In this document: positions 6,510 through 6,756 of the stretch, piece after piece
Layout: every line of letters starts with the position of its first letter
Position numbering within the stretch: position 1 is the stretch's first letter
NCBI GenBank assembly: GCA_902780505.1
Contig: CACZFN010000007.1
Location: 1-64,000 of the forward strand
DNA length: 64,000 bases
Reading direction: 5' to 3'
Origin: an uncultured Ruminococcus sp.
Lineage (GTDB): Bacteria; Bacillota; Clostridia; Oscillospirales; Ruminococcaceae
Made by a program: the position numbers and the translations under genes
Notes under the pieces: generated by a model
The model's input: the letters and a program-made list of their open reading frames with translations, nothing else
Told to the model about the DNA's origin: nothing
Databases searched by the model: none

Positions 6510-6542
6510 AAAAAGGCTGTGGTCTTAAAGAAAACCACAGCC
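6510..6542 (-). terminator. Attenuator terminator upstream of aroF
   Basis: On the minus strand GGCTGTGGT (6542-6534) and ACCACAGCC (6523-6515) form a perfect 9-bp stem with a 10-base loop, followed by five T (6514-6510). It lies between the leader peptide and aroF, so it terminates transcription before the gene. The strand 6539-6526 can instead pair with leader bases 6609-6596. Confidence 0.9.
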
Positions 6543-6568
6543 ATAAAGATCAAAATATATGATGTTTA

Positions 6569-6691
6569 TTACTTTGCAGGCGTTTTAAGCGCCCTTGCAG
6601 CTTTCTTTACACGACAAACAGACTCGCGTCCAAAAAAGTAAAACGAGCCAAAATAAAAGTATGTAAAGACAAATGCTGCTGTAAGTAACAT
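6569..6691 (-). CDS. aroF leader peptide, rich in Phe and Tyr codons
   Basis: A 40-codon reading frame begins at ATG 6691 and ends with TAA at 6569, preceded by AAAGGA. Residues 6-20 read AFVFTYFYFGSFYFF: seven Phe and three Tyr in fifteen codons. It is followed by a basic stretch (RVKKAARALKTPAK) and lies between a consensus promoter and the terminator ahead of the DAHP synthase gene. This matches classical leader-peptide attenuation: stalling at Phe or Tyr codons when the charged tRNAs are scarce would leave the downstream RNA free to pair. It might be a membrane peptide, but codon content, position and RNA pairing all argue for a leader. Confidence 0.85.
   Translation of the reverse strand: MLLTAAFVFTYFYFGSFYFFGRESVCRVKKAARALKTPAK
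6596..6609 (-). promoter_or_regulatory. Antiterminator strand of the aroF attenuator
   Basis: Within leader codons 28-32 the [17 protein letters not shown] (6609-6596) can pair over 14 consecutive positions (11 Watson-Crick, 3 G-U) with TGTGGTTTTCTTTA (6539-6526), the 5' arm and loop of the attenuator terminator. A ribosome stalled near codon 20 would leave this strand exposed; one that reaches the stop at codon 41 would cover or pass it and let the terminator form. Confidence 0.7.
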
Positions 6692-6727
6692 ACAGATACT
6701 TTTCCTTTCATTGATTTATCACGTTAA

Positions 6728-6756
6728 ATTATAAAACAAGCTTACCGATTTGTCAA
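6728..6756 (-). promoter_or_regulatory. Promoter of the aroF leader transcript
   Basis: On the minus strand TTGACA (6756-6751), a 17-base spacer, and TATAAT (6733-6728), a perfect consensus promoter, 36 bases upstream of the leader peptide ATG. The leader region 6477-6727 (250 bases) is thus fully accounted for as untranslated control RNA plus leader peptide. Confidence 0.85.

Follow-up and report, generated by a model that had tools for sequence, protein, structure and literature searches.

A predicted Phe/Tyr leader-peptide attenuator upstream of the DAHP synthase gene aroF in an uncultured Ruminococcus, and its relatives in Clostridia

The Phe leaders of Escherichia coli combine a run of control codons with the 1:2, 2:3 and 3:4 logic of alternative RNA pairings. 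The aroF leader described here, which lies in a 64,000-nt stretch of DNA from an uncultured Ruminococcus sp. (the window), follows the same logic, but the E. coli leaders carry Phe codons only and belong to another gene and another phylum, and no Rfam family matches the window. Classical attenuators have also been described in Firmicutes, where His leader peptides are found at hisS and hisZ (2010; PMC2965389) and at the his operon (2022; PMC9413887), sometimes in place of T-boxes. As these two texts present them, however, they concern histidine genes and narrow lineages. A leader peptide with Phe-Tyr-Phe, part of a predicted attenuator, was reported for aroF of Corynebacterium glutamicum (2013; PMC4046766). 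By its description it likewise precedes a DAHP synthase gene, but it is actinobacterial, and three aromatic residues are named.

Two sets of uORF candidates are closer. uORFC-13-1 is described from Acholeplasma and environmental sequences, with 24 representatives that occur only upstream of aroF and that show at least one Phe codon, a possible promoter, an RBS and a terminator (2021; PMC8632094). It resembles the present leader in that a uORF with Phe, accompanied by promoter, RBS and terminator, stands before aroF; the section devoted to it names a further paired substructure and no antiterminator, and its description sets it apart from the present leader, which occurs in Clostridia, carries many Phe and Tyr codons and has a covarying 2:3 pairing. 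A study of five genomes, Clostridium novyi included, depicted two uORF candidates for Phe/Tyr upstream of shikimate genes (Stav 2019, Fig. 6b; PMC6429828). Like the aroF leader, they contain both Phe and Tyr codons and precede genes of the shikimate pathway; they are given in the main text without mechanism or distribution and, known as they are by description only, could belong to the same family as the aroF leader. In the passages available, a 50-genome follow-up (PMC11109978) names no aro gene and speaks only of 'aromatic', and the papers on attenuators in Actinobacteria (PMC1262725) and on T-boxes (PMC2494555) leave aroF unmentioned. Our search, which most subscription journals and supplements lay outside, found, apart from the papers cited, no report of a clostridial family of aroF leaders. 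This kind of attenuator is already known; as far as the search shows, what is added here is the distribution in Clostridia, the covarying pairing scheme and the coexistence with T-boxes.

In the window, the leader elements are situated on the minus strand between aroF and, 5' of the leader, a gene with GTP-bdg_N and GTP-bdg_M domains, which we take to be hflX-like. An earlier note, made from the sequence alone, had described a perfect promoter, a 40-codon peptide with ten Phe/Tyr codons, a 14-base antiterminator pairing and a terminator with a 9-bp stem and T5. The promoter is of the sigma-70 type (TTGACA-17-TATAAT, 6756-6728, minus strand) and indeed agrees with the consensus at 12 of 12 positions. 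It is followed by a Shine-Dalgarno sequence read from the DNA (AAAGGA, 6708-6703, minus strand), 11 nt 5' of the ATG of the leader ORF (6691-6569, minus strand), which is seen in relatives as well and encodes 40 residues; in translation, the peptide is hydrophobic and ends in a basic tail. The ten aromatic codons were found as claimed, at positions 7, 9, 11-14 and 17-20 (control codons, 6673-6632, minus strand), and their composition is conserved. The 14-base pairing of 6609-6596 with 6539-6526 is likewise exact, with three G-U pairs, and its leader strand lies 22 nt from control codon 20. With regard to the terminator, the T5 is present, but the stem is 12 bp long, with a 4-nt loop, rather than 9 bp (stem 6542-6515, whole element 6542-6510, minus strand; fold and covariation); the aroF start codon lies 33 nt past its end. 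The earlier note did not contain a competing pairing, between codons 5-10 (region 1, 6679-6662, minus strand, with near-invariant Val-Phe-Thr codons) and the antiterminator leader strand (region 2, 6611-6596, minus strand). Region 2 is the shared partner of region 1 and of region 3, the terminator 5' arm with its loop (6539-6526, minus strand); pairing and covariation define regions 2 and 3.

As in leaders of the trp/phe type, a short ORF preceded by a Shine-Dalgarno sequence carries a run of end-product codons, an intrinsic terminator stands between this ORF and the gene, and an antiterminator, mutually exclusive with the terminator, is placed downstream of the control codons. Judging from these sequence features and their relatives, a ribosome-mediated transcription attenuator very probably controls aroF, and the aro genes behind it are possibly governed as well, through readthrough. 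The 251-nt leader folds with a z value of -3.73, and none of 200 shuffles was equally low. Terminator-like matches over 8.2 kb are at chance level by count (7 versus 6.8 expected), and the one in the aroF leader is the longest of the seven, with 12 pairs, the next having 8. The decisive statistics for the leader are the comparative ones.

The aroF gene (6476-5448, minus strand; PF00793, PF18152, NF006421) encodes a DAHP synthase with an N-terminal ferredoxin-like domain, presumably of type I-beta. Its best PDB matches are 4grs and 1rzm/3pg9, the latter being, we assume, the Thermotoga enzyme; DAHP synthases of the 1rzm/3pg9 sort are feedback-inhibited by Tyr or Phe. Past aroF on the same strand follow aroB (3-dehydroquinate synthase, 5324-4215; PF01761, PF24621), an ORF of no known family, aroA (EPSP synthase, 3597-2371; PF00275) and aroC (chorismate synthase, 2009-918; PF01264). 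A second promoter-like site (TTTACA-17-TATAAT, 11/12, 5381-5353, minus strand) is located between aroF and aroB, so that control by the attenuator may be incomplete for the aro genes further on. A 183-aa ORF within the cluster (4203-3652, minus strand), membrane-like by eye, gave no match in Pfam and NCBIfam searches. Between aroA and aroC, at 2281-2046 on the minus strand, two short ORFs overlap; their halves are alike (GGYNKEDFL..., GGFSETEVEAYL...), and they are possibly a split or two-part small gene.

A leader was scored in relatives as an ORF of 12-60 codons, preceded by a Shine-Dalgarno sequence, with at least six Phe/Tyr within 12 residues. Set 1 comprised the window and the best 80 aroF loci of a longer list (81 upstreams); set 2 comprised 114 upstreams, five from the same genus and 109 from a class sample in which 145 of 196 genomes had an aroF match and 109 of the listed places were used. 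A locus with a partial gene (L096), places with long fused frames and further places of the class and other samples were left out. L109, which has only 132 nt upstream, was counted as leaderless, as was L211 in the phylum sample, whose gene start was not aligned and whose upstream is unreliable. The aromatic run was retained upstream of related aroF genes, a point on which the earlier note had made its reading depend: 57 of the 81 upstreams of set 1 carried a Phe/Tyr leader (dinucleotide shuffles 0.6, opposite strand 1), and so did 68 of the 114 of set 2 (0.8 and 1, respectively). ORFs with runs of W, H, L, I+V, T or C gave nothing comparable in the same upstreams; those with runs of R or K+R were mildly over shuffles and far from the Phe/Tyr level. 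The feature thins out in a phylum-wide sample, with a leader in 10/47 upstreams (shuffles 0.3, opposite strand 1).

The terminator, too, was found together with the aromatic run. Among 193 distinct upstreams, 136 bore a leader when no Shine-Dalgarno sequence was required, and 121 of these had a terminator call; 57 had no Phe/Tyr leader and 15 more had no terminator call. Both Phe and Tyr occur in the best 15 residues of 118 of the 121 leaders with a terminator (window included), three having Phe only; the means are 4.95 Phe and 3.52 Tyr, and 104 leaders have at least two of each. A promoter-like site matching at least 10/12 positions lies within 110 nt upstream of 91 of 120 leaders (4.9 expected from mononucleotide shuffles; one of the 121 was dropped as its upstream was too short), and promoter, leader and terminator co-occur in relatives. 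Residue order and length vary while the Phe/Tyr content stays constant, and the tails of the peptides differ even among near relatives. The aroF Phe/Tyr leader is common, not unusual, within its group. The view that such an attenuator is unusual for Firmicutes was correct only in part. Clostridia with this DAHP synthase commonly have it, and a published text (PMC6429828) already contains uORF candidates of the Phe/Tyr type at shikimate genes.

The titles of leader-bearing records name Ruminococcus, Oscillospiraceae, other Clostridia, three Lentisphaeria-type organisms and one Flexilinea. The last four (L045, L058, L067 and L043, labelled Lentisphaeria, Lentisphaerae, Oligosphaeraceae and Flexilinea) contain a near relative of aroF that is preceded by a Phe/Tyr leader; either gene and attenuator were transferred together or the contigs are misbinned. 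Some leaders and near-threshold ORFs (L141, L158, L122, L168, L174) contain Trp codons too, for instance in WRWRKF, hinting from sequence at three-amino-acid sensing in a few lineages.

The RNA pairings were followed in an alignment of 18 Ruminococcus-type leaders, the window among them. The 2:3 antiterminator pairs in 72.5% of cells versus 45-51% in slid registers, a comparison that favours the unslid register because the pairings were derived from the window, itself a row of the alignment. Its covariation score is 0.328 versus 0.135-0.183 slid and 0.224 shuffled, with 0 of 500 shuffles reaching it, and 24 cells are changed on both sides versus 9.4 in shuffles. In these 18 leaders, 7 pairs are changed on both sides, against 6.1 in shuffles, and there are 22 pair types, against 21.5; neither count stands above the shuffles, so that the covariation support for 2:3 rests on the cells and the score. 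The covariation that the earlier note had anticipated for its 14-base pairing thus shows in these two measures, whereas the count of doubly changed pairs gives no sign of it. The 3:4 terminator has a covariation score of 0.569, and 10 of its 12 pairs are changed on both sides. In a wider test, covering the 63 of 81 loci that have both leader and terminator, own 2:3-type duplexes averaged -14.7 versus -11.6 kcal/mol for cross pairs (mean z -1.50, below -1 in 45/63); some z values are above 0, so that single loci are often not significant.

The 1:2 pairing joins GCAGC...UCUUUACA (codons 5-10) to UGUAAAGAAAGCUGC in region 2 at -16.2 kcal/mol. It is paired in 82.6% of cells versus 33-60% slid in the 18 leaders, and no covariation was seen among them because region 1 is nearly invariant. 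Fourteen of the 18 rows share the 12-mer GTCTTTACATAC that spans the VFTY codons. The Tyr codon of region 1 is TAC in all 16 rows with Tyr, other Tyr codons being 13 TAC and 12 TAT. All 18 rows use TTT for the Phe codon of region 1, which is less telling since the other Phe codons are TTT in 95/116.

The response of these pairings to ribosome position was computed with the RNA free from 12 nt past the first base of the A-site codon. In the unfinished transcript of the window, 2:3 has a probability of 0.86-0.88 whichever of the ten Phe/Tyr codons occupies the A site. The value is 0.88 for codons 22 and 24, drops to 0.67 at codon 26 and is 0.00 at codon 28, past which the ribosome covers region 2. 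It is also 0.00 with codon 1 in the A site, a position that leaves region 1 free. Without a ribosome, the unfinished transcript prefers 2:3 (0.74) to 1:2 (0.16), which makes the role of 1:2 uncertain. Once region 4 is present, 3:4 reaches 0.92-0.96 at equilibrium in every ribosome state. Given that the terminator wins at equilibrium regardless of the ribosome, 2:3 would have to be kinetically trapped, and the decision is likewise kinetic in other attenuators.

Over the whole set of 121, upstream pairing of the terminator 5' arm has a mean probability of 0.72 when the A site is at the middle aromatic codon, versus 0.31 at the stop codon and 0.54 with a shuffled leader strand. Part of the fall at the stop codon would occur in any case, since a ribosome at that point leaves less RNA free. 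The stalled-state value exceeds that of the stop state in 118/121 leaders and the leader's own shuffle mean in 109/121 (Wilcoxon p ~9e-19 with relatedness ignored; as the sequences are related, p-values overstate independence). Much of the upstream pairing is generic, since the shuffled mean is at least 0.5 in 86/121 leaders versus 115/121 observed. In 59 leaders, at most 10% of 30 shuffles were as high; a strict computed switch was found in 46/121, and in 24/121 the terminator arm is still paired at 0.5 or more at the stop codon.

The Phe/Tyr attenuator that the earlier note had proposed for aroF gains support from this comparative and covariation evidence, and its likely course can be outlined. 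Transcription would start near 6721, and the leader would be translated while RNA polymerase makes the downstream RNA. When charged tRNA-Phe or tRNA-Tyr is scarce, which we infer to be the physiological signal, the ribosome would wait at one of codons 7-20 and cover or separate region 1, leaving region 2 free. Region 2 could then pair with region 3 ahead of region 4 synthesis, trapped kinetically, so that the terminator would be blocked and aroF transcribed. When both tRNAs are charged, the ribosome would reach region 2 by codon 28; with region 2 occupied, 3:4 would pair and transcription would end at about 6510, after which region 1 could re-pair with region 2. As either codon could halt the ribosome, the leader would be an OR gate for two amino acids.

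The same genome has seven T-box matches outside the window, three of them above the gathering score. The frames that follow are trpE (PF04715 just downstream), a membrane ORF and then tyrS, and leuA; alaS, ilvA, pheS and ileS were recognized by eye from translations. From these positions, Trp appears to be sensed by the trpE T-box and the common pathway by the Phe/Tyr leader. The genome's own prephenate dehydratase genes lie in L206 and L207, the latter gene being identified as pheA by eye; the first 1.6 kb of either oriented locus contains no short ORF that reaches five Phe/Tyr in 12 residues. L206:1249-2220 (minus strand), apart from the other PF00800 gene, has a prephenate-dehydratase-like domain (PF00800, 196.8 bits) and a lipoprotein-like N-terminus. 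Sixty aroF upstreams were scanned for T-boxes: 40 of the 57 leaderless distinct ones and 20 of the 47 of the phylum sample, the latter including two with a leader (L220, L224). A T-box in the aroF direction was found in three (L204, L205, L247), whose genomes have a more distant aroF, and one on the opposite strand in L038. A T-box as the general replacement in leaderless relatives was rejected on this count of 3/60; the three cases indicate that the two sensors can substitute for each other.

The presence of T-boxes elsewhere in the genome and the three aroF-directed ones also lend some ground to the idea that a T-box, riboswitch or protein-binding attenuator acts at this locus and that the ORF is incidental. 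However, no Rfam 15 family reached the gathering score in the whole 64-kb window, T-box RF00230 had no match there, aroF upstream included, and the conservation of the Phe/Tyr ORF is far above chance; we regard this explanation as the least probable of those weighed here. A little less improbable, though still extremely so, is that the product of the ORF is a small membrane peptide with a function of its own, the terminator being no more than basal. A hydrophobic peptide with a basic tail would suit such a role, but residue order and length vary around a preserved Phe/Tyr content, the tails are unlike even in near relatives, the VFTY codons hardly vary in nucleotide sequence, and the 2:3 and 3:4 RNA pairings covary. 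Tail variation and RNA covariation led us to reject the small-protein reading.

A nascent-peptide arrest sensor, of which TnaC is the model, would bind free Phe or Tyr in the ribosome instead of reporting tRNA charging. It would equally combine a peptide leader with a coupled RNA structure, and sequence alone cannot separate it from attenuation by stalling at uncharged codons. Arrest peptides, however, usually keep conserved residues at fixed places, whereas here it is mainly composition that is conserved, across many codons. This explanation is very unlikely, if the least so of the three, and attenuation by a translating ribosome is the reading that we retain. The aroF attenuator is real, well supported, of an ordinary kind and of wide distribution.

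Ribosome-mediated attenuation is commonly cast as typical of Proteobacteria, with the T-box as its counterpart in Firmicutes. In many Clostridia, the first step of aromatic biosynthesis seems to be under a leader-peptide attenuator of the classical type, in genomes that have T-boxes too. Because the host has T-boxes at trpE, tyrS and pheS, its aroF leader may sense two tRNAs on behalf of the shared pathway. The broader proposition, that these leaders form a lineage-wide, unlisted attenuator family by which Clostridia that use T-boxes place the shared aromatic pathway under a two-tRNA OR gate, stands in our estimate at even chances. On this reading, a T-box, which reads one codon, would suit single-amino-acid genes such as trpE, tyrS and pheS, while the common first step would need a joint Phe and Tyr sensor. 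The aroF leaders offer a ready sequence set for an RNA family model, and the aroF leader and the T-boxes within one genome provide a natural comparison of two tRNA-sensing systems. If the family reading is true, the T-box-bearing aroF of some lineages would make the exchange of sensors directly traceable.
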